64,000 nucleotides of DNA from the NCBI RefSeq assembly GCF_002105155.1, contig NW_019029024.1, forward strand, positions 202,001-266,000, in the 5' to 3' direction. Both the position numbers and the translations under genes were made by a program. This document shows, piece by piece, positions 29,671 to 50,030 of the stretch. Numbering within the stretch: position 1 is the first letter of the stretch; each line of letters begins with the position of its first letter. Under the pieces are notes generated by a model. The model was not told where the DNA came from. It did no database searches and worked only from the letters and a program-made list of their open reading frames with translations. This DNA comes from Lobosporangium transversale (Eukaryota > Mortierellomycota > Mortierellomycetes > Mortierellales > Mortierellaceae).

Positions 29671-30944
29671 GATGACTGTAATGGAGAGTAAGTAAGAATG
29701 CAAATGTAACTGTGAAAAAAGTGTGGAATGCAATGAAGAGAATAGGAGTATAAAAGAAGTGAGGAAGTGAGGAAGTGGAGACAACAGGTGAGCACTCGGT
29801 GTCGGTGTGACGAACAAACAAATCGAACAGGGTTTGTGGAGAAAAAAAAAAAAAAAAAAAGTTTTTTGGGGAGAAAAGAGATCAGAGGAGAATGGATAGG
29901 ACAAAAAGAGACTTCATCTTCCTTGGATAAGAAAAGCTAAAAGCACGTCCACATCCTTTCCACTTGGAGCAATAACGACTGGGGAAGATAAAGGAATAGG
30001 GGGAGATGTAAGATGCATATAATGCAATGTAAAAAAGCAAAGCTAAGCTAAGCACTTCTGAGCTGAGGAAGCATTAATGGAAAAAGCACTCGACATCAGC
30101 ACTCCCACCCAATCAGCAGATCAGATTAAAGCATAAGTATCGTGATAAGATATAGAAAACAAGAAGTCAGTCTCTTTTTCGATCAGTCTTCCCCTTTCTT
30201 CCCCAACAAGTCCCTGAGATCAACATGCATGACAAAAGCTAACTCCTGTGCCGCCACCTTCGATCGGTATTTTATTTAATGTGTCATGCAATACAAAATA
30301 GGAAGAAAACAATCGACCTCAATATATAAATGTGTGTATTTCCACTGTAGTCAAATCCGTGTTATATCTCCAAGGCAAAACAACATTAATTCTCATCTAA
30401 AGACTCTAGAAATTGGATTTCTTATCGGCAGGGATTGAACACCTCTTCGTGAAGGCAAAATAGGACAAGGGAAAAGAAAGAAAAACATGCTTTGACTTTT
30501 TTTTTTCTTTTTTCTTTTCCTTTTCGTTTCTCAACTATCAAGTGAACAAAGGCGCTGCTTGTGGAAAGAAAACAATCAAAGTTTTTTCTTTTCAGTAGCA
30601 TAGTCGAAAGCACTTGACAACCATGTCTTTTTGGCGATTGTGATTTGCCTTGCCAGCGAGGTTGGGTGTCCGCATCCATCCTTTACGGTCATTCAAATCC
30701 AAAAACCAATTCGTTTTCTTTAACACCTGGGGTTGCATTGTTGCCTCAACAGGGCGGAAAGGTAAACTTGTGTGTATTATTTCTCTCTGAGAAAAGTTCA
30801 TACAAAACACTTGGAAGTAGCTCTTGTCTAGCAATCGTTGTGCTTTCAATCCTAGGGAAAAAAAATTGCAAAGACTGACAATGGGATACAGCACAAATAA
30901 TGAACAGAGCATAGGGAGTCATATTCTCAGCATTATTCGTATGC
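29671..30944. other. Intergenic region before the 18S-like sequence
   Basis: About 1.3 kb without a supported gene. The first part is the 5' flank of the NTF2-like candidate with a ~19-nt A run at 29842-29860. A minus-strand open frame at 30592-30912 reads LKKTNWFLDLNDRKGWM in a plausible protein style. It has no start context or homology I can name, so it is left uncalled. Confidence 0.35.
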
Positions 30945-31917
30945 TTGTCTCAAAGAAAAGGCCTAAGTATAAACGATTTGTACTGTGAAACTGGGAATGG
31001 CTCATTAAATCAGCTATAGTTTATTTGGTCATACCTTACTACTTGGATAACCGTAGTAATTCTAGAGCTAATACATGCTAAAATCCTGACTTCTGGAGGG
31101 GATGTATTTATTAGATAAAAAACCAACGCGGGCAACCGCTTGTCTGGTGATTCATAATAACTTTTCGAATCGTATGGCCTTGAGCTGGCTATGTTTCATT
31201 CAAATTTCTGCCTTATCAACTTTCGATGGTAGGATAGAGGCCTACCATGGTTTTAACGGGTAACGGGGAATTAGAGTTCGATTCCGGAGAGGGAGCCTGA
31301 GAAATGACTACATCCAAGGAAGGCAGCAGGTGCGCAAAATACCCAATCCCGACATGGGGAGGTAGTGCCAATAAATAGCAATACAGGGCTTTTTAGTCGC
31401 AATTGGAATGAATACAATTCAAATCCCTTAACGAGGAACAATTGGAGCGTAAGTCTGGTGCCAGCAGCCGCGGTAATTCCGGCTCCAACAGGGTATATTA
31501 AAGTTGTTGCAGTTAAAAAGCTCGTAGTTGGATTTAGGCCCGGCTGGGCAGCCTTGCTGTATGACATGTACTGTCTTGACTGGGTCCTCCCTTCTGGTAA
31601 GCTGTCGTGTTGTTTACTCAGTGCGGCAGGGAACCAAGACTTTTATTTTGAAAAAATTAGAGGTTTAAAGCATGCATTCGCTTGAATACATTAGCATGGA
31701 ATAATAAAATAGGACTTTGGTTCTATTTTGTTGGTTTCTAGGACCAAAGCAATGATTAATAGGGATAGTTGGGGGCATTAGTATTTAATTGTCAGAGGTG
31801 AAATTCTTTTCATTAATCAAGAACGAAAGTTAGGGGATCGAAGACAATCAGATACCGTCGTAGTCTTAACCATAAACTATGCCGACTAGGGATCAGACAA
31901 GGATAATTTGACTTGTT

Positions 31918-31955
<38 letters not shown>

Positions 31956-31973
31956 AGGAGTATGGTCGCAAGT

Positions 31974-32009
<36 letters not shown>

Positions 32010-32183
32010 AGAGTGGAGCCTGCGGCTTAACTTGACTCAACTCGGGAGGGCTCGCCAGGTCCAGACATAGTGAGGATTGACAGATTGAGAGCTCTTTCTT
32101 GATTCTATGGGTGGTGGTGCATGACCGTTCTTGGTTGGTGGAGTGATTTGTCTGGTTAATTCCGTTAACGAGACCTTAACCTA
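30945..32183 (+). pseudogene. 18S rRNA pseudogene, 3'-truncated
   Basis: The stretch aligns from memory with fungal 18S rRNA from the ATGCTTGTCTCAAAG region to GTCTGGTTAATTCCGTTAAC. Universal blocks are kept, such as GTGCCAGCAGCCGCGG, CTAATACATGC, GAGGTGAAATTC and GATACCGTCGTAG. It is not a working gene. The segment between CTCAAAG and TAAGTATAAAC is shortened, and the ACGGCTACCACATCC block is damaged (ATGACTACATCC). ATTCCGGCTCCAACAGGG replaces the invariant ATTCCAGCTCCAATAGCG, and CTCGGGAGGGCTCG replaces CACGGGGAAACTC. After GTTAACGAGACC the match fades and the last ~350-400 nt, ITS, 5.8S and 28S are absent. A 34-T run follows at 32265. Confidence 0.85.
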
Positions 32184-32263
32184 TAAAAACGTGACAAATA
32201 TATTTGTTTATGACTTTTTGGCGAGGACTCCATTTCCTTTCCTAAGGGGACTCAGCTCTAGAC

Positions 32264-32298
<35 letters not shown>

Positions 32299-32920
32299 CA
32301 TCCTATGGATCGCGAGACACCAAGGTTCGACATAGGAGAGTATGATGGCTTTATTTGATCATTTGATGGCTTGGTCAGTAGTAATACTATTCGCATCACT
32401 AGTATTATTCGTATCACTAACATTATTCGCATCACTGACATTTTCCGCATCACTTTGCACTTTCTGTGAGCTAGGTTTGTTGTTTTCTTTGAGCTTGATT
32501 AATGACCAATGCCCGACCTGCAGCGATAAAATAGTCGATCATTGCCCGTTTTCGTGTTTGATTACCGCCATCCTCTCTTTCTGCTTCACCTACTTTTCTT
32601 CTCTCACTACGCACTTTTTTTCTCTCCTCACTCACTTTTTTACTCATACATACACTCTTTGACACCTATTTATTTTTTACCTCTCTCTGCGTACTCGTTT
32701 ATTCTTCTCTTTCATTACGTATCTTTTTTTTTTTTTTTTTTTTTTTTTTTCACTCCTCTCTCTCTCTCTCTCCTGTTGCTAGTTACTCTTTATAGCTGCT
32801 TTGTTCAGGTGCTTGAAGACTAGTCATTGTATGCATAGACTACTTTTTTGGTTCAAAGATAAAGAGGGTTATTCACACAGTTCACTCATGTCTTTGTAAT
32901 CCTCATATTATTCTTTAGCG
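32184..32920. other. Low-complexity spacer between 18S pseudogene and nuclease pseudogene
   Basis: It contains a 34-nt T run (32265-32298), a four-unit tandem repeat (32388-32459), long CT-rich DNA (32560-32790) and a ~24-nt T run near 32727-32750. No gene is seen. Confidence 0.6.
32388..32459. repeat. 18-bp tandem repeat, four copies
   Basis: Four units of about 18 bp, each built on ATTCGCATCACTA with one to four changes, lie head to tail. They read as a six-residue hydrophobic repeat in one frame, but no gene is evident. Confidence 0.8.
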
Positions 32921-35900
32921 ATGGGAATCGTGGGTTTGTGGCCCTTCGTTCGAAACAAGGGCTACGAGGCAGATGTTTACTCTCCATTCCTTACCTCTAA
33001 GCTCAATGACAACACAATCTCCGGCATTCATCGTGTTGATATCATGGCATCATTTTACAGTACCATCCGTTTTGCCTATACCAATCACCCTCCAGATATT
33101 GCTCACACTATACTCGAAAGCAAAATAACAAGCTATGGAATTCCTCGATCCTCATGGCTGTACCTCGATGGGATAGCACCGAAAGAGAAGTTAATGAAGT
33201 ATCGGAAGCGGATGCTGGATCGCGAGATAGCGAGTCAGAAGGCTCAAGAAACTCTCAAAATATTGGAAAGCATCATCAAAGAACGACCTCAGAGTCCGTA
33301 AGAGCCTCTTTATTAAGATCAGGAAACTTATCAATGCAGCCTTTCGTTGGTCGCCAGAGCTCAAAGGATCCTTTGCCCATTACATGTGCAGCAAGGGTTG
33401 GAATATAAAAGAATGTCCCTATGAGGCTGATACGGCCATTGCGGACGAGACAATGCCCGGTGATGTAGTGATCTCCGCTGATGGTGACATGTTTGGCTAT
33501 GGCAACATCACGACAATCTGGCGGCCGTGCTCTCATCACAAATTTCTTGTGTACGATGTGTCCCGACTGTGCTGCAAACTCTTCAAATATCTAGAGATCA
33601 ACTCACAGTGCTATGCATTATATCCTCCAATGATTATAACCGCAACGTACCAACCCTTGGACTAGTCACCAATTTTAAGATTGTCAAGTCATTGACACCA
33701 GAAGGTAGCATTATACAGTAAAATTATGACGCTTACAGTTAGATTTGGAAATGCCATTCTATTTTATTTTGTTTTGTGAGTAGATCCGGCTACTATGGTT
33801 CAGAACTATCTTCAACACGAGCAAGTCATCAGCGAAGATGTCTCCACTAATCAGTTTGAGCCAGCTTTAGACGTCTTTGTGTTTCGAAAGCAGACGAAGC
33901 CACTCACCGATATTCCAGCTGTTGATGGGGCTATCACAATATATATCGATCTTGAGAAAAAGTTTAATGATCTTCGCGATTTACTAAAAGAGAGAAAGGA
34001 TGAGCAACGTGCTCTGAAGGATCAAAATAGGTAATGTACTATGGTAGTAATACTACAACAGCTGAAAAAAAAAAAGTAATAGCGAGCTAATATGCCTCTT
34101 TAATTCCCTTGTTTTTAACGATCCGGGTAATGATCACAATTGAACATGTCATCCAACTCTTTCAACAAATGTCGTACTATGGATCGATTTCCTGAACAGT
34201 GGCCGCCTCCTCATGAATCTGAGAGGAGATACAAGTATAGAAAACGCTTCTCGCTCAAAACTCGTACACGTCTTTTAGAACATGAGCCCCCGGAAAAAAT
34301 GAAACAGTATGTTCTGAAACCATGGACTTCGCGCGATCAGAGTGACAGTAAGCCGCCCAAGAAGAAGCAACGCAAAGAGAGGAAAAAATTGAGAGCTCTG
34401 GATAAAAGAAGGCTGGTCGAAGCAATGCAATCAGTGCTCCTATTCGGACCATTCGAATGGATATCAGGATTCGAATGCTATTCGAATCGAACCAGGATAT
34501 GGCTTATTCGAATCAAATCGAATAGGAGCACTGGCGGCTATAGATCAGAAGACCGCAAAGGGTTCAAGGGATACAAAGCCAGAACGTCAACGATACTCAT
34601 CCAGGAAATGGTTGACCATATAAGATATATCCAGGATGACGATTTCGACCCTAGTTTATATCAAGAGCGTGACTACGTCCTAAGAGGCTCGATTCGGACT
34701 GACGGTTTCCTTCTTCAACTTATTGCATTCAAACTAAAGGAGCTTAATGCAGTCAAATACAAGCGCCTGCCTGAGGAGAAGCTTCCGTCTCGTCTCACGT
34801 CCACCCTCGGAGGAACAGGAGATTTTCTCACCGAAATCAGAAATGTGGTAAAGACTAGGAAGGATGTGCTAGACCTTTGGGGAACGGAGCCAGACAAATC
34901 AAGATCCTCGGCCTAGATCTAGGTCAAGCTTTCATCGCTGGAGCCAGCGCTTTACTACCTGACAGTCTCAAGACAGATAAAGGCAAAGGGATCGATACGT
35001 CAATCAGGAAACCGACTGATAAAGACACTAAGTCACATTCTGCTACAAGGTTCTACAACTTGGCTATAAGCCAAAAAGCAGCGTACCAACCCACTTTGAG
35101 ACATCGACACTGGCAAGAATGGAAGAAAGCAAAGACAGTATATGACACCATGTCTGTTACTGGAATTGAAAGCTCACTACCCTCCCTTCGCGGCGACAAT
35201 GCCAGTGTCAAGGATTACGTAGCAAGGTTGGAGGAGGTTGAGGCTCATCTGGGTTCGTTTTACAATGACTCCAAAACCTGGAAGAAGAATAAGTGGGACG
35301 CAGGAAAGGCAAGAAGTGAAGAATATGGACATATGGTGAACAGCCCTCTCAAAATCATTGGAGGGACAATAGGGGAGATCCAAAAAGACGAAAACAAGAT
35401 GATTAATGGCATTGGCCTTGGCAAGTTCCAGTCCAGCAGAGGACTTTCATCTCTTCACGAAAGCTTCAAGTCATATTTTGTGAGAACGGTATGTAGTAAG
35501 TAGTAGACGAATCCTTTGTTATGGTTGTTCATAATGTGGTTCAAACATACTAATTGTTATTTATTCTTCTTGTTAGGCAAGGGCTCTAGGCTATATCGTA
35601 GTCGGGGTAAATGAATTTTATACCTCGAAAAGATGCCCGAGCTGCGAAGGATTCGTTTGCCAGGTAGACATAAGGAGGCTTTACTGCAAGAAGTCCATCA
35701 CAGAGACGTAATGGCAGGCCACAACATTGCCAATGCAGTCCGCGGCCAGCTAATCAACCAACAGCGACCCTCATATCTTCAACCACAGGATGAAGCTGGC
35801 AACTTTCTCTGGATGGTACAGAAAGTCCCGCTCATGGATGCCAGCAGTTCTGGAAGCGGAAGCCAGGGGCACAAGCGCCAACCAATGACGGAAGGGTCAG

Positions 35901-43972: not shown

Positions 43973-44270
43973 GAAAGTGCTTCCTTGTCCATAATGCTGC
44001 ACTTCACTTGGTCCACAATTTGATCGCGCATTAGAGTAAAAAGCCAAATCAATTCCTAAATGCTTTCTCTCTATCATCTCTGCCCTTGCGATAGTCAACT
44101 GTCTTAATCTCCAAAGTACAGTTCAATTCCCGTTATCTGTTGATCTGTACGGTTTTTAAAGTTAGTCCAGAAATTCAGGGGCAAAAGATTAGAGAGGATG
44201 GATACAGGAGACGAAAATAAACAGAACTTACAAATTTTTTGTGGGTGTGCCGGTACCCAAATACTTGTGT
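42835..44270. other. AT-rich spacer with hairpin and homopolymer
   Basis: No gene is seen in 1.4 kb. It contains a strong hairpin (43012-43051, 15-bp arms AGCGACCCTTTCCTG and complement). Two loosely similar ~50-bp blocks follow near 43160 and 43300 (GAAAGCCCTT, AAAATGCCTATCA), then T runs near 43391-43402 and 43942-43970 (29 T). The last ~250 bp are the 3' flank of the minus-strand nuclease gene. Confidence 0.5.
43012..43051. repeat. Hairpin with 15-bp arms
   Basis: AGCGACCCTTTCCTG at 43012 pairs with CAGGAAAGGGTTGCT ending at 43051 around a ~10-nt loop. It has no gene beside it within 1 kb. It could be a remnant transposon end. Confidence 0.7.
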
Positions 44271-45752
44271 CTAGCGTCGTGCGCGCTTTGCAGCCGGAGC
44301 AGGCGACTCTTCCGTGGGCTTGTACTTTGCAGGTCTCTCTTGTCTCTCAATTTGAGCAAGACCGATTCTTGCGATGTTTCCCGCCCCTACTGCGTCACGG
44401 TCGAAGAATACCTTACATGTCCTGCAATATTTAGAGCGAGGGTACACCGTCTCTAAAAAGCTATCGCAGAGGGGTCGGGGACAGCGGGCGCTGGTGTAAA
44501 ATTCGTGCGCTCCTACAGCGAAGTGTCCTCGTGCTTTGACCTAAGCGTTTCAAATGGCAGTCGTTTATTAGCAAGGGTTTTATGGCTTTCCAGCTTTGCT
44601 TACTTTTTTAAAAACAGCCATACCTGTGTGACAAGATGTCTCGTTATAGCAGTGTGCTTGCTGGGAACTCCTTTACTACTTTCAAAGGACCCTAGGCCGA
44701 CGACAAGTACTCCTTTATCCCCAAGCATCTCCAACACTCGCTGTACCGCGTAGTCGAACGTAGCTCGTTGAGCCTTTCGTAGGTCCCATTTTTTTTTCAG
44801 GTGCCATCTGGACTCGTAGAACTCTTGAAGCACATCCAAATTCGTTGATCCTGTCTGTGTCTGAGACTCCTCGTTCATCCATTGAAAGTACTCATTATAC
44901 GTATCCCTTCCAAACACAGGGATGGCGCTCTCAACCTCAATCATTCCTTTTTCACGCTTCCTTTTGTTCAACAGGTGATTGAAGCGGAGGACAGGGAGGT
45001 ACAAGAACCTGCTTCTCACCTTTACCGTTTGCCGCAAGTTAGGGTTGTGAGGGTCCAGCGAGGAAAACGTAAGGGCGTTAACAATACCAGGATCACATCC
45101 GACGATAGTTGTGGTGTTTGCGGATGGGCATCGCCCTGGTTTGTTGAATGTGAGCTCAACGTTTTCAAGCAGCTTGGAGCTCCTCTTCCAGTTTATGTTT
45201 GCGTAGTCTTCATCTGTTAGGTCTTCACCGGCCGCCTTTGAACACGTCGTGTTGAGAAATCCCTGAGAAAGCTCCAGTTCTTGGATGGGGTCTTCTTCAT
45301 CTGCGTCAGACTGCTGCTGTCTCTTCGTCTGGGTTGTGTCATAGGCAAGTAGATTCAGAACTAGACCGTTGGTAGAAATCGTCCCTTTGAGTTTGAACCG
45401 AGTTAGATCTTTGTCCTGTGACTGCAGGGATACTTTGTCTTGATATCCACGAACCATGCGATCACCTCCAATGTCACAAAAGAGAGCCTGTATCAAAACC
45501 CCTTTTGTTCCCTGTACACACTCATACATTGCAGTCTTGGAAGCATTATTGAGAGGCAGAATACGCTCCAGCAGCTGCTTGGTATCTTCGTTCGCCCAGA
45601 GGATGTCAACTAGGGCGTGTTCAGACAGATACACATACCCGGGTGACCAGGGGGACGTAGGAAAGTCTGAGTATTTTTTCACTTTTTTGTTCTCCCGCAA
45701 AAAAAACTCAATGTCGCTCATATCTTCGTTTGTTTTCTCGACATCAAACTAG

Positions 45753-45785
<33 letters not shown>

Positions 45786-47779
45786 TGTGAATAAAGAGCA
45801 TTTGATTGCAGAATATGCATGAAAATACCCCTACACAAGCTATACCATTGCGTTCCTGTAGTGCTGCCTTAATGATGTCTGTACTTGGCCCATTAGTAAG
45901 TCTGACGCTCTTGGAAATGTGATCTTTTTGGGATCAAAGCCTTGGACGTCCCCCAATGTGATGTCTATATCCTTTATTGGGGAAAGTTCAGTGGTGGCCT
46001 TGAAATGTTCATAAGCGAGGTGATGATGGGGCGTTTCTACCGCCTTTCCTTGTTTTTTTGCCCTCACGTAAGCTGAATTGGGGCCACCTTGACCACTCAA
46101 AAGAAGGGTGGCGAGACGGAAGGAATAATCATTGCTATCCAAGACCTCGTCCAGTGCCTTTTTCCTCGACTTTGCTGCCCCTGGTAACCGCATGATCCTC
46201 TCAATGTCCAAGGCAATCGCCCAGTATGCATAGCGGCGTAGTCGGTTGAGGACAACAACTGCCCCTCGGATCTGGCTTGCAATACTATCCCTTTCATCTG
46301 CGTCCAGTCCGCCTTTCCTTGCCACGGAGGCCTTAAGGGACCCAATTGTTAAGGCCTTGATAGGGTGCTTACTGCTGTAGCTGTGATCAACCTTCGTAGC
46401 ATCCTTCAAGTTCCTAATTGGTGCACCTTCTTTTTTAGCCCTGTGGGGCTTCTTGCCTTTGTGCTTCCGCTTTTGTTTTTTCTGTTGCTTCTTTTTTGCC
46501 TTTCTCCGACGTGGTGGATGCTTAAGGCCCGGCCTATCGTGCTGACGGCAGTTACTGATATCAACTGTGCGCCCATTCATATGCTCGCCTTGTCAGAAAA
46601 GATGGGCCGGAACTGGTTCCTATGTGACCCTTCCGCTATATAGAATGATGGTACGCCTCTACATTATTCAAGAAAGGGGCTAACGATTAGTATTGGGGAC
46701 GTCTGGTTTCAAGGCCAAAAATTATAGCTTGAGCTTTCTTACATTCTGCGGCGCTGCGCTCGCCTTTGCTGAGCCATTCTATGGCGAAGATCCTTTCCAT
46801 TGAGTAGACGCTGCTTGAAGTTATCGAACTCATTGTTCGATGGTAACGCTTGGGCCGACGTTTGATGGCCGGAAGTAAAAATGCGGAGAGCTACACTGAA
46901 ACGGCCTTCCTCAGAGGCTACGTTCCTTCCCAACACCTTATTAGCTTCCTCGAGGTAATCTTGAAGCATTTTATTATAGTTCTCGTTCCACGCAACCTTT
47001 CGAACTAATCGAAGATTATTAACCGGGCCTAACGTCTCGAGGTTCCTTGAGTAGTCATTGCCTGCGATGGCACAGAATAACACCAGATGCGCGTGTGTTG
47101 GCAGTCTTAGTGCTTGGATAACGTTGTCTACGTCGTAAACCCCAAACTTCCGTCTACGGTGTGGAAGGGGTCGCACTAGGATGCAGACTCGTTCGTACGC
47201 AAAAAAATTAGAGTCTTGGGATATCACGATCCTATCATTCTCCTCATTATGGCGCCCTATGCATGGATCCGCTTCATATGCACACAGACAGACATCGAAG
47301 ACAGAACTAAGGCCTGTTGCCAGCTGATCCTTGTCCTGGACGCTCAGGGTGTGGACTTCCCGAAGACCCTTCTGGATGCGCCTCATGACTTGAGGACGAG
47401 TCCATACCCCACTCCGAGAATTTCTCTCGAAGGTGCTCATATTGTTCTCCAAAGCGTCCATATTTTTTTGTCTTATGGCTTGCCGTTCTGTCCTTGCTTT
47501 TTCTTTCTCAGTACAAGGTTCCCCATCAATATGTATAGTCAGGTTGTCCGTTGTGAAAAGATCCTTTATCTCGAGTGCCAGGGACCTTCCTACATCAATG
47601 ATGGTTTCGTTTTTCATCTTTGCATGGACAACTCTGCGGAGGATGTCGTAATAGAACGTACCGAGGAGATCTAAATGAACAGAATGGTCAGGATTTGCCG
47701 CCAAGAAAGTGCCCACGTCAGTTTCCGAAGGTAAAACCCCGCGATCCTCAACCAGTTTGAAGAAGGACTTCAGCCCCAT
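44271..47779 (-). CDS. FEN/XPG-like plus TnpB/Fanzor-like double-nuclease protein (copy 2)
   Basis: Exons read: 47779-46743, then 46580-45846 (central), 45748-44624 and 44540-44271; the first join is unsettled. Exon 1 (about 346 residues) has MGLKSFFKLVED, HIDGEPCTEKEK, CAYEADPCIG, RIVISQDSNFFAYE and AIAGNDYSRNLETLG, the pattern of XPG-N and XPG-I nuclease regions. The central exon is Lys/Arg-rich, then helical. The third exon holds FKLKGTISTNGLVLNLLAYD, RuvC-I-like TIVGCDPGIVNALTF (Asp codon at about 45092-45094) and VVGLGSFESSKG. The last exon has the zinc ribbon (SARCPRPLCDSF, then YCRTCK) and RuvC-III-like FDRDAVGAGNIARI. This is the TnpB/Fanzor module order. The same two-part order in the copy at 32.9 kb argues for one gene. 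Activity is not shown: it could be a mobile RNA-guided nuclease, and the FEN part has no role I know of in that setting. Confidence 0.65.
45753..45783. repeat. 31-nt poly(A) run in an intron of the double-nuclease gene
   Basis: On the coding strand this is a T run just upstream of the CTAG acceptor of the exon starting at 45748, an extreme polypyrimidine tract. Confidence 0.9.
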
Positions 47780-49855
47780 GGTCAATATCTAAGCGAAAAG
47801 AGAAAGAAAAAAGGAAAAATGGTGGTGATGAAAAGAAATGAAAAAGAAAAAAAAAAAAAAAAGAGCGACAAAGGTATAAAAGGATGAGCTTTTTTATGGT
47901 GTAAAGATTCAAAGCGAATAGATAAAGAATATTGAGGGAAAGATACAGGAACAAGTGGCAGTGGTAAAAGGGATGGGACTTTGAAGGAGGAAGACAATGA
48001 TCCCTTTTTATATCCTGGTTTGATGATGAGTTTTATCATTGTCTCATATAGTTTTGATATCGATCCTTTGCTTCACAGGCCACATCAATCTTTATTCAGT
48101 TCCTTTGTTTGGATTGGGGTTTTGTCCCAGTCAATAGCAGAGATTGACAAATAAATACAAGCTCTCGCATGAACGGCAGATTGGAAACAATAACATTGAG
48201 ATACCAAAGTGAGCATTCGAAAAAATCATCTCCATATACAGCATACAGTGTCGATGTCGATCCTTTTTACACAATTTTTTTTTTTTTTTCAGTTTCTTTT
48301 GTTTGCACTGGCTCTCGTTTTGTGCTTTGTGAGGAATTTAATGAATAAAAGAAGATTTATAATTTTGAACAGGGGTAATAAATGCATTAACAGATATGAC
48401 TTGGTGATTATATCCTTTCAAAGGTAACAACTAAAGAAAAAAAAAGTCTTTTTTTATCAGAGAATGGGTTCAGATGTCGTTCTTTGCTCCAACAGCCCCA
48501 GTACTATTGCGTTAAAGCAGAGATATTCGTTGTCTCTCAGGTTCCGGCATCAATGGCGAGATAGGTGATGTGCTTATTGCTTGGAGTAAAAGCTAGCTAA
48601 GCACCCTTTCTTACTGGACGGTGCCTTGTTAATGGTGATATTGCGCAGCGCCTTGTGGATGGAGGGAGAGCAGAAGCGAGAGTGGTGGTTTTTGGCGGTC
48701 GTTTGGTGTGTGTATGTGCGAACTTGATAGTTGATACCAATCACCAAAATATATGCATTTAGAATTACAGAAGCGAGATTAATACCGACGCGTTTCATCC
48801 TTTCCTAGGGATTGTTATAACCATGGCATGATTGTGGAGTGGCCGCCAAAATAAAGTTTGTTTATTTCTTCTGGAGGCACCAATGGAAAACGCTTGTGTT
48901 TTGTGTTTTGGAATTGCAGAAAATAAATAAGACGCCGCGATGTAAAATGTGTATATGCATGTACAGAAACCAAAGAGATGCTTCAGCTGCTTATTCGTGC
49001 ACACAGTGATTGACGAACAAAAAAGGAAAAAAAAAGCCCGCGATGAAAGAAGGCATGTACAGACAACAAATAAACACAGCAACTGTTTGCTCACATACAT
49101 TTTTTTCACCGTTGTGTCTGTATGTCTTTTAAGCTTTCTGTCTGGCCGTTTAACACAAGGAATCCTCAGAAAAAGAAATACCTCGCATGATTGGTGCCAG
49201 GTCTGAAAACACCAATAATGCAATGCTGTACGTGGAAGATAGGGTCTAGAAACTATACCATTGTTATGCAGACTCACCGAAATCAACTTGTGATCACATG
49301 CCCTCTTGCCAAGGACTTGAACAGGCATACCAACCCCTTCTTCCTTGCTCTCATAACCGCTCACATCCTTTCGATGCATTCTTTCGCCGTTCATGTCCAC
49401 TACATCTGAACCACACAGTTCACCACTCACTCCAACAGAGATATTTGTATCATCTTGGGTATGATATGTTGCTGTAGTTCCCTCTGGTTTCAACAGGCCC
49501 AACAAACTCTATTAGCAGTGTTTACCAACCCAGATATATCAAGAAGACGAGGAAGCAAATGATGTGACAAATCAAGTCTTGCCGAGCAAGCTCTATGGTG
49601 CGGTAGAATGAATCAACTCAGATTGCCCTCCTTTCAAGTCGATACTATGGCGAATATTATCACTGCTATTACACCAGTCAATAAATAAACAACACAATGG
49701 GCCCCCTAAGAGGATGCTAGTGTCATGCGAAAGCCTTCAAGAGTTTTTTTATTGGCACAAATAAAGAAGCCAGGATAGCTCCATGACAGTTTAGTTTTCG
49801 GTCATTTATTTCGACATCGAAATAAAATTTCAAGACAATGCCCATGAATTGCTGA
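47780..49855. other. Accessory region with weak exon-like fragments
   Basis: The part up to about 48100 is the 5' flank of the double-nuclease gene (CT-rich on the minus strand). A minus-strand stretch at 49510-49277 reads GLLKPEGTTATY and VQVLGKRACDHKLIS between a good acceptor (CTGCTAATAG) and a good donor (GTGAGT). It may be one exon of an unrecognised gene. A plausible preceding exon (LLPRLLDISGL) lies at about 49600-49525. I could not extend it to a start or stop, so it is noted rather than called. Confidence 0.25.
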
Positions 49856-49859
49856 ATTT

Positions 49860-50030
49860 TAAGCCCATTTATAATGGCAAATTTGCCAGGTTGACGGTTT
49901 AAGGGAATAGTGACCTCTGTTTGGACATAAAATTTATATGTAACTCTCGTTATAGAGACATTTTTTATATGGAAATGTCACTATCGGGTATCACTATAAG
50001 GGGGGCTCACTAATTGGAAGAGTAAGAGTA
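49860..50030. repeat. Possible transposon-end fragment
   Basis: The stretch contains loose inverted words (AATAGTGACCTCTG, CTCTCGTTATAGAGAC, TGTCACTATCGGGTATCACTA) ending in a GGGGGGC run next to the tandem repeat. Short repeated TCACTAT/ATAGTGA words of this type are common at Tc1/mariner-like ends, but no transposase is nearby. Confidence 0.3.

Follow-up and report, generated by a model that had tools for sequence, protein, structure and literature searches.

A 64,000-nucleotide stretch of the Lobosporangium transversale genome (contig NW_019029024.1, positions 202,001 to 266,000; hereafter the window, numbered from its first base) holds one decayed copy of a dispersed element that, as read from sequence, carries a four-exon gene for a single protein: a FEN-family nuclease of the flap-trimming FEN1/EXO1 kind, followed by a conserved linker and a complete Fanzor1-type half. 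Fanzors are eukaryotic RNA-guided nucleases, relatives of CRISPR-type cutters. The gene is real at the level of its family, and an earlier note on the window, which had proposed that one gene joins a FEN-like to a Fanzor-like nuclease, was right to that extent; the proposal fails for the window copy itself, which is frame-broken near position 46579. What computation supports is that the fusion exists, that it is conserved among Mortierella-type fungi, that both halves have their catalytic residues and that the gene lies in dispersed elements; guide use, target cutting and trimming of the break by the fused protein are what we infer by analogy. On balance, we regard as fairly probable the reading of a transposon-borne gene whose single spliced product, a FEN/EXO1-family 5' nuclease joined by the linker to a complete Fanzor1-type nuclease, would have a guided cut-and-trim role.

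Structure of the gene

Four open frames follow one another on the minus strand (47779-46740, 46592-45840, 45748-44600 and 44540-44271). The first, of 346 codons, contains all the FEN/XPG motifs that the earlier note had named (MGLKSFF, HIDG, YEADPC, ISQDSNFFAY and GNDYSRN), and VGCDPG, a four-cysteine ribbon and FDRDAVGAGNI were confirmed downstream. These motifs are more than chance resemblances, since they are accompanied by profile matches in the PDB, by a Pfam PF07282 match above the cut-off and by structural matches to FEN1/EXO1 and to Fanzors, all described below. Exon 1 (46743-47779) encodes the FEN/XPG/EXO1-family nuclease domain and ends in phase 2 before the donor of intron 1 (46659-46742, GTAAGA...TGTAG), whose GT and AG sites are intact in all of the 19 aligned copies but L026, which lacks the stretch. 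The junction from 46743 to 46580 suggested previously could not be upheld, as it has no acceptor and its phase fails; comparison with the other copies and with a second subfamily of the element, B, places exon 2 at 46658-45846, where it encodes the linker FYIAEGSHRNQFRPIF, a basic stretch and the start of the Fanzor half. Intron 2 (45749-45845, GTATAG...TCTAG) and intron 3 (44541-44623, GTATGG...CTTAG), both of phase 0, enclose exon 3 (44624-45748), which was assigned to the Fanzor half by sequence and structure match and includes the DPG of RuvC-I at about 45086-45094. Exon 4 (44271-44540) carries the alternative catalytic glutamate (E-x6-C), the C4 zinc ribbon, the DRD of RuvC-III and the stop codon.

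We interpret the two halves as one fused protein because 30 of the 31 listed FEN copies in the genome are followed on the same strand by the RuvC half. The list comprises matches over about 300 residues or more, copies split into several rows being uncounted; two rows of comparable length that are riddled with stop codons (C51:1174658-1175692 and C44:173478-174392) were excluded, two stop-bearing rows of a third group (C44:263594 and C72:57345) were kept, and the sole exception, on C56 (L025), lacks about 700 bases of exon 3. The intron arrangement argues in the same direction, since all three introns have identical places and phases (2, 0, 0) in subfamily B and in subfamily A, to which the window copy belongs, and B has a FEN half about 31% identical to that of A and its own RuvC half. 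At the first junction in B, exon 1 ends in CCCAG before the donor GTAAGC and exon 2 follows ATTAG, giving the joined frame ...QPQPR-FYIPKRAKPNRYRPVF...; in the B copy L037 this frame has no methionine ahead of the Fanzor half, which therefore lacks a start codon of its own. Annotated proteins holding both halves in other fungi, the agreement between trees of the two halves, and predicted models that match both Fanzor and FEN1/EXO1 structures likewise argue for a single product. The linker of subfamily A has a counterpart at the same place, FYVAPGSHKNQYRPIF or similar, in the proteins of Podila (P0003) and Mortierella antarctica (P0005) and in two of M. alpina (P0006 and P0007), and is less closely conserved in subfamily B. 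Across the linker stretch the frame is kept in nine other A copies under a stricter pattern test, the remaining nine being unmatched by the pattern.

The FEN and Fanzor halves

A profile of the FEN half matched 14 distinct PDB sequences below E 0.01 (best 7.7e-8), all 14 of them named FEN1, Rad2, EXO1 or XPG, and the predicted model of this half matches FEN1/EXO1 structures and has the fold of the FEN/XPG/EXO1 superfamily. Seven diverged FEN sequences share without exception the acidic positions D37, D85, E169, D171, D189, D191 and D242, together with a Lys/Arg pair; we take the seven acidic positions to correspond to the metal-binding residues of FEN1. The Pfam families XPG_N and XPG_I gave no match for the window copy, and P0003 reached XPG_I at E 0.15 only, below a threshold that is a cut-off and not a defining property of the superfamily.

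The last exon passes Pfam PF07282 (TNB zinc ribbon, E 4.1e-6), the sole Pfam match above the cut-off among the frames of the gene, and the predicted model of the C-terminal half matches Fanzor structures over the whole REC-WED-RuvC-TNB fold. In the available portion of Bao and Jurka (2013, PMC3627910), Fanzor1 proteins are described by the pattern D-X(125,275)-[TS][TS]-x-x-[C4 zinc finger]-X(5,50)-RD. Run with the first knuckle relaxed to C-x2-4-C, this pattern was found in the window copy, in the B copy L038 and in 21 of 62 database proteins (P0003, P0006 and P0007 included), many of the other 41 being fragments or lacking the C-terminus. Further Fanzor1 traits in the accessible text of Yoon (2023) are DPG at RuvC-I and an alternative glutamate six residues ahead of the first cysteine; the corresponding E-x6-C is present in the window copy, in L038 and in 17 of the 62 proteins, again including P0003, P0006 and P0007, and the RuvC-I of P0004, a protein of Benniella, reads D-S-G. 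The CxxC first zinc knuckle, which in the same partial source is a survey pattern and not a definition, was matched in none of the 64 sequences by a version of that pattern with looser spacing than the published one; the first knuckle of the fused family is C-x4-C.

Fused proteins in other genomes

The linked order, which the earlier note had suggested looking for in related genomes, was found in annotated proteins of Benniella (P0002, 1160 residues), Podila verticillata (P0003, 1260), M. antarctica (P0005, 1136, partial) and M. alpina (P0006, 1186, and P0007, 1502). P0004 also has both halves, with the linker absent. In Lobosporangium, P0001 and P0057 both begin at the end of the FEN half and continue into the Fanzor half, and P0009 consists of the Fanzor half alone. 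The FEN region of P0003 used as query returned four proteins, P0003 included, all four with Fanzor sequence, in a search that admitted only 0.55 to 1.75 times the query length, so that stand-alone FEN relatives could not show up. A search with the Fanzor half, in which only the 7,996 candidates sharing most words were scored, returned 55 proteins, the named ones from Lobosporangium, Mortierella, Dissophora, Gamsiella, Entomortierella and Modicella, which we take to be Mortierella-type genera. Trees of the two halves (eight sequences) agree in grouping B with Benniella, Podila with M. antarctica and the two M. alpina proteins with each other, the position of subfamily A being unsure. From this agreement and from the occurrence of the fusion across other genomes we infer that the fusion is old and that its halves travel together. 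At the level of protein sequence, the fusion is conserved within Mortierella-type fungi.

A viral origin of the fusion was also considered and rejected: among viral contigs 69 and 60 pattern matches were obtained, none of them related by tblastn, and Foldseek against viral models returned viral transposase or TNB-type proteins and viral flap nucleases, with no row named as a fusion.

The dispersed element and its copies

The whole element, a subfamily A copy, spans 49911 (5' end) to 44134 (3' end) on the minus strand, as delimited by blastn against 19 other copies; this 5.8-kb unit is common to the 20 copies read with their flanks (L017-L036), many A copies having internal gaps or insertions. 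Its ends recur amid unrelated flanks (15 left and 19 right ends read), which bears out the mobile nature that the earlier note had supposed. With up to two mismatches allowed, the 42.7 Mb of genome searched contain 38 matches to the right-end motif and 41 to the left-end motif, reversed controls giving zero; the FEN frame yielded 121 match rows and the RuvC frame 145, many rows being pieces of one copy. Copies L019 and L020 share the same 40 bases past the right end and have different left flanks, for which recombination, use of a repeat as target or read-through may be considered.

Upstream of the gene, the 5' part of the element (47780-49911, minus strand) is non-coding with no recognised gene; the one 237-codon frame scanned there has no credible Pfam match, and the 421 bases adjoining the gene diverge about two to four times faster than the exons measured. 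The 3' non-coding end (44134-44270, minus strand) shows low divergence among copies and is the expected place of a Fanzor guide RNA.

The subfamily B element begins with TATAGCCCGTTCCATT... on the left and finishes with ...AATGGGACGGACTATA on the right, with inverted repeats of about 16 bp and a TA beside nearly every end read; in the subfamily A ends (ACTATCCCTT... and ...AACAGATA) no inverted repeat beyond a few bases was found by eye. The left end of B is nearly identical to that of a 7-kb Tc1/mariner-like element (L041, C37:189826-196909). The ends of the latter are mirror images across the 30-35 bases compared, and it contains a 621-codon DDE-like frame with weak Pfam scores below the cut-off (HTH_Tnp_Tc3_2 0.0093, DDE_3 0.095). 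Pairs of such ends with a spacing of about 7 kb were seen six times, and one 7-kb element was read whole. Many B elements also hold an antisense A-type Fanzor fragment (residues ~77-249) upstream of the FEN gene, for example at about 1958-2470 on the minus strand of L037, with a set of stop codons that is mostly identical from copy to copy.

Of 19 distinct left flanks of B, 18 have G next to the TA; G stands at this place in 2 of 18 distinct right flanks fitting the pattern and in 9 of 32 control ends (Fisher, left versus right 1.9e-7, left versus control 2.4e-6). The sample comprised 20 of 27 B-type left ends and 20 of 29 right ends, not each confirmed within a gene-bearing copy, and the control comprised 20 left ends with a sibling repeat and the 12 ends of six 7-kb elements. 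Such an asymmetry is not what a symmetric TA-targeting transposase would produce, but it would follow from a motif next to the left end that guided cutting of the empty site requires, and in this respect the left-flank G looks like a target-adjacent motif. Alternatively, the transposase may be asymmetric, or the left end may extend one base further. For comparison, the motif of SpuFz1 is CATA in the published account, as far as available. Two branches of subfamily A differ in the base that precedes the TATCCC start: 13 of 15 distinct flanks have C in one, and 15 of 16 have T in the other, 3 of 35 left ends without a clear start having been dropped; these bases (AC in A1, T in A2) may represent a changed target motif or element sequence and are not counted as evidence.

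Elsewhere in the window, a second, decayed FEN-half relic lies at about 33300-33700 on the plus strand (56% identity to residues 220-265 of the B query). The same strand carries, at 30921-32380, two pieces of a small-subunit ribosomal RNA gene of eukaryotic type, seemingly incomplete (Rfam RF01960, model positions 4-1116 and 1188-1491 of 1831). At curated thresholds Rfam gave nothing but these 18S fragments in the window, and a transfer RNA scan of the window gave none.

The window copy

The window copy is the only one of the 19 aligned that lacks a base near 46579 (minus strand), present in all 18 others, and because of this one-base deletion its frame stops at codon 373. From the inferred gene structure, it could not make the fused protein. 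The ATG at 46580 likewise exists solely because of the deletion. A stop-start coupling of two frames (ATGA) in the window copy was also examined and dropped, being absent from all 18 other aligned copies. The metal motif was located in 12 of the 19 A copies, reading SQDSD in ten and SQDSN, a D-to-N change, in two (the window copy and L019).

Proposed mechanism and alternatives

In the mechanism we propose, a guide RNA would be taken from the right end of the element and the flanking DNA, like in other Fanzors, and the Fanzor half would cut the empty donor or allelic site beside the left-flank motif (AG-TA in subfamily B). It would fall to the attached 5' nuclease to trim or resect the 5' ends left at the break, or the displaced R-loop strand, after which repair would copy the element back from the occupied sister or homologue, movement itself being done in trans by a Tc1/mariner-like transposase. 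More tentatively, and with confidence that stays short of even, the protein can be pictured as a two-nuclease homing machine in one polypeptide, in which EXO1/FEN1-type resection would act at once on the guided Fanzor break and steer repair from end-joining to copying of the transposon; the short motif beside this break possibly varies by subfamily (AG-TA in B, AC-TA and T-TA in A).

Several observations weigh against a guided cut-and-trim role. No A copy among the 19 aligned has a frame that is open from end to end, and of the four B copies read only L038 stays open beyond the DRD motif; it ends at codon 1,209, in a tail whose frame is not that of L037. L037 has one stop, and L039 and L040 are broken. 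In subfamily A no purifying selection is seen in the FEN half (shared variants 19 silent, 51 not), whereas it is seen in the RuvC exon (25 silent, 25 not), the expectation being that 23-34% of random changes are silent; for the FEN exon the A copies yielded no information in a codon-position test, and the FEN branch of subfamily A in the tree is long. The RNA fold at the 3' end of the element is no better than that of shuffles (z +1.5). A 2.8-kb stretch (C42:320740-323556) has B-type left and right ends and Fanzor exons with the FEN half absent; it is probably a deletion derivative, and since it exists the FEN half may be dispensable in cis for some copies.

Some of these points would suit an RNA-guided fused protein whose FEN half no longer cuts and serves as a DNA-binding or bubble-recognition module. 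Relaxed selection in subfamily A, the D-to-N change in 2 of the 12 copies with the motif found and the FEN-less derivative all fit; the invariance of the seven acidic positions and the Lys/Arg pair in seven diverged sequences, needless for binding alone, makes us judge this rather unlikely. The fused protein could instead be the element's own transposase or excision enzyme and not be RNA-guided, considering that no other gene was recognised in the element and that neither half alone explains the movement of subfamily A, which is without clear inverted repeats. Yet subfamily B shares its left terminal repeat with the 7-kb element encoding a DDE transposase-like protein, and the Fanzor half has the complete Fanzor fold and active-site motifs, so that such a function appears improbable. 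Least credible of all, and in our view very improbable, are two separate cooperating genes in one element, a 346-residue FEN-like protein with its own stop and a Fanzor starting from the ATG at 46580. If exon 1 is read on, 10 of 14 listed A copies do give an open frame of 349 codons and 14 of 15 B copies one of 341 codons, the window copy shows the ATGA overlap, and some annotated models of L. transversale, such as P0009, hold the Fanzor half alone. However, that ATG was created by a deletion seen in 1 of 19 copies, L037 is without an ATG before the Fanzor half, the splice sites and in-frame linker are conserved, and five fused proteins are annotated elsewhere, with P0001 and P0057 of Lobosporangium crossing from the FEN end into the Fanzor half.

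The biological role of Fanzors was stated as unknown in 2023 in the available part of PMC10432273. A natural fusion to a nuclease that processes 5' ends, maintained across deep divergence inside a single group of fungi, hints strongly that the processing of breaks is part of this role, and makes it directly testable. If the cut-and-trim reading is true, the fusion would offer a natural model for guided cutters controlling repair of the break, and selfish DNA would have invented a guided cut-and-resect enzyme.

Comparison with known systems

The fused family resembles Fanzor1 proteins such as SpuFz1 of Spizellomyces punctatus and PpFz1 of Parasitella parasitica in its whole C-terminal fold, the DPG of RuvC-I, the alternative glutamate and the DRD, as well as in being carried by DNA transposons, with TA at both ends in subfamily B. 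It differs from them by an additional N-terminal FEN/EXO1-family domain of 340 residues, by its C-x4-C first zinc knuckle in place of CxxC, and by size, the five fused proteins having 1,136-1,502 residues against 600-700 for most Fz1, to which the RuvC insertion of PpFz1 is a notable exception (PMC11423790, in the sections available). Compared with FEN1, EXO1 and Rad2-XPG nucleases, the FEN half is transposon-borne, joined to a Fanzor and below the Pfam XPG_N and XPG_I cut-offs. As in the Mariner, MuDR, Helitron and Sola elements with Fanzor1 in the accessible text of Bao and Jurka (2013, PMC3627910), the Fanzor is cargo of a DNA transposon. The virus-borne Mariner PGv-1 of the same partial source has a GIY-YIG nuclease beside its Fanzor, that is, a second nuclease of another family and in a separate protein, unlike the fused FEN-family nuclease found here. 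The earlier note knew of no described protein joining the two, and we found no description of a FEN-Fanzor fusion in the portion of the open literature searched, survey supplementary tables, which may list Mortierella proteins, being set aside; no such fusion was met in the available parts of PMC3627910, PMC10711439, PMC10432273 and PMC11423790. Fanzor1 and FEN nucleases are each known, and what appears to be new is the joint protein, a Fanzor1-type nuclease with an added FEN/EXO1-family domain.
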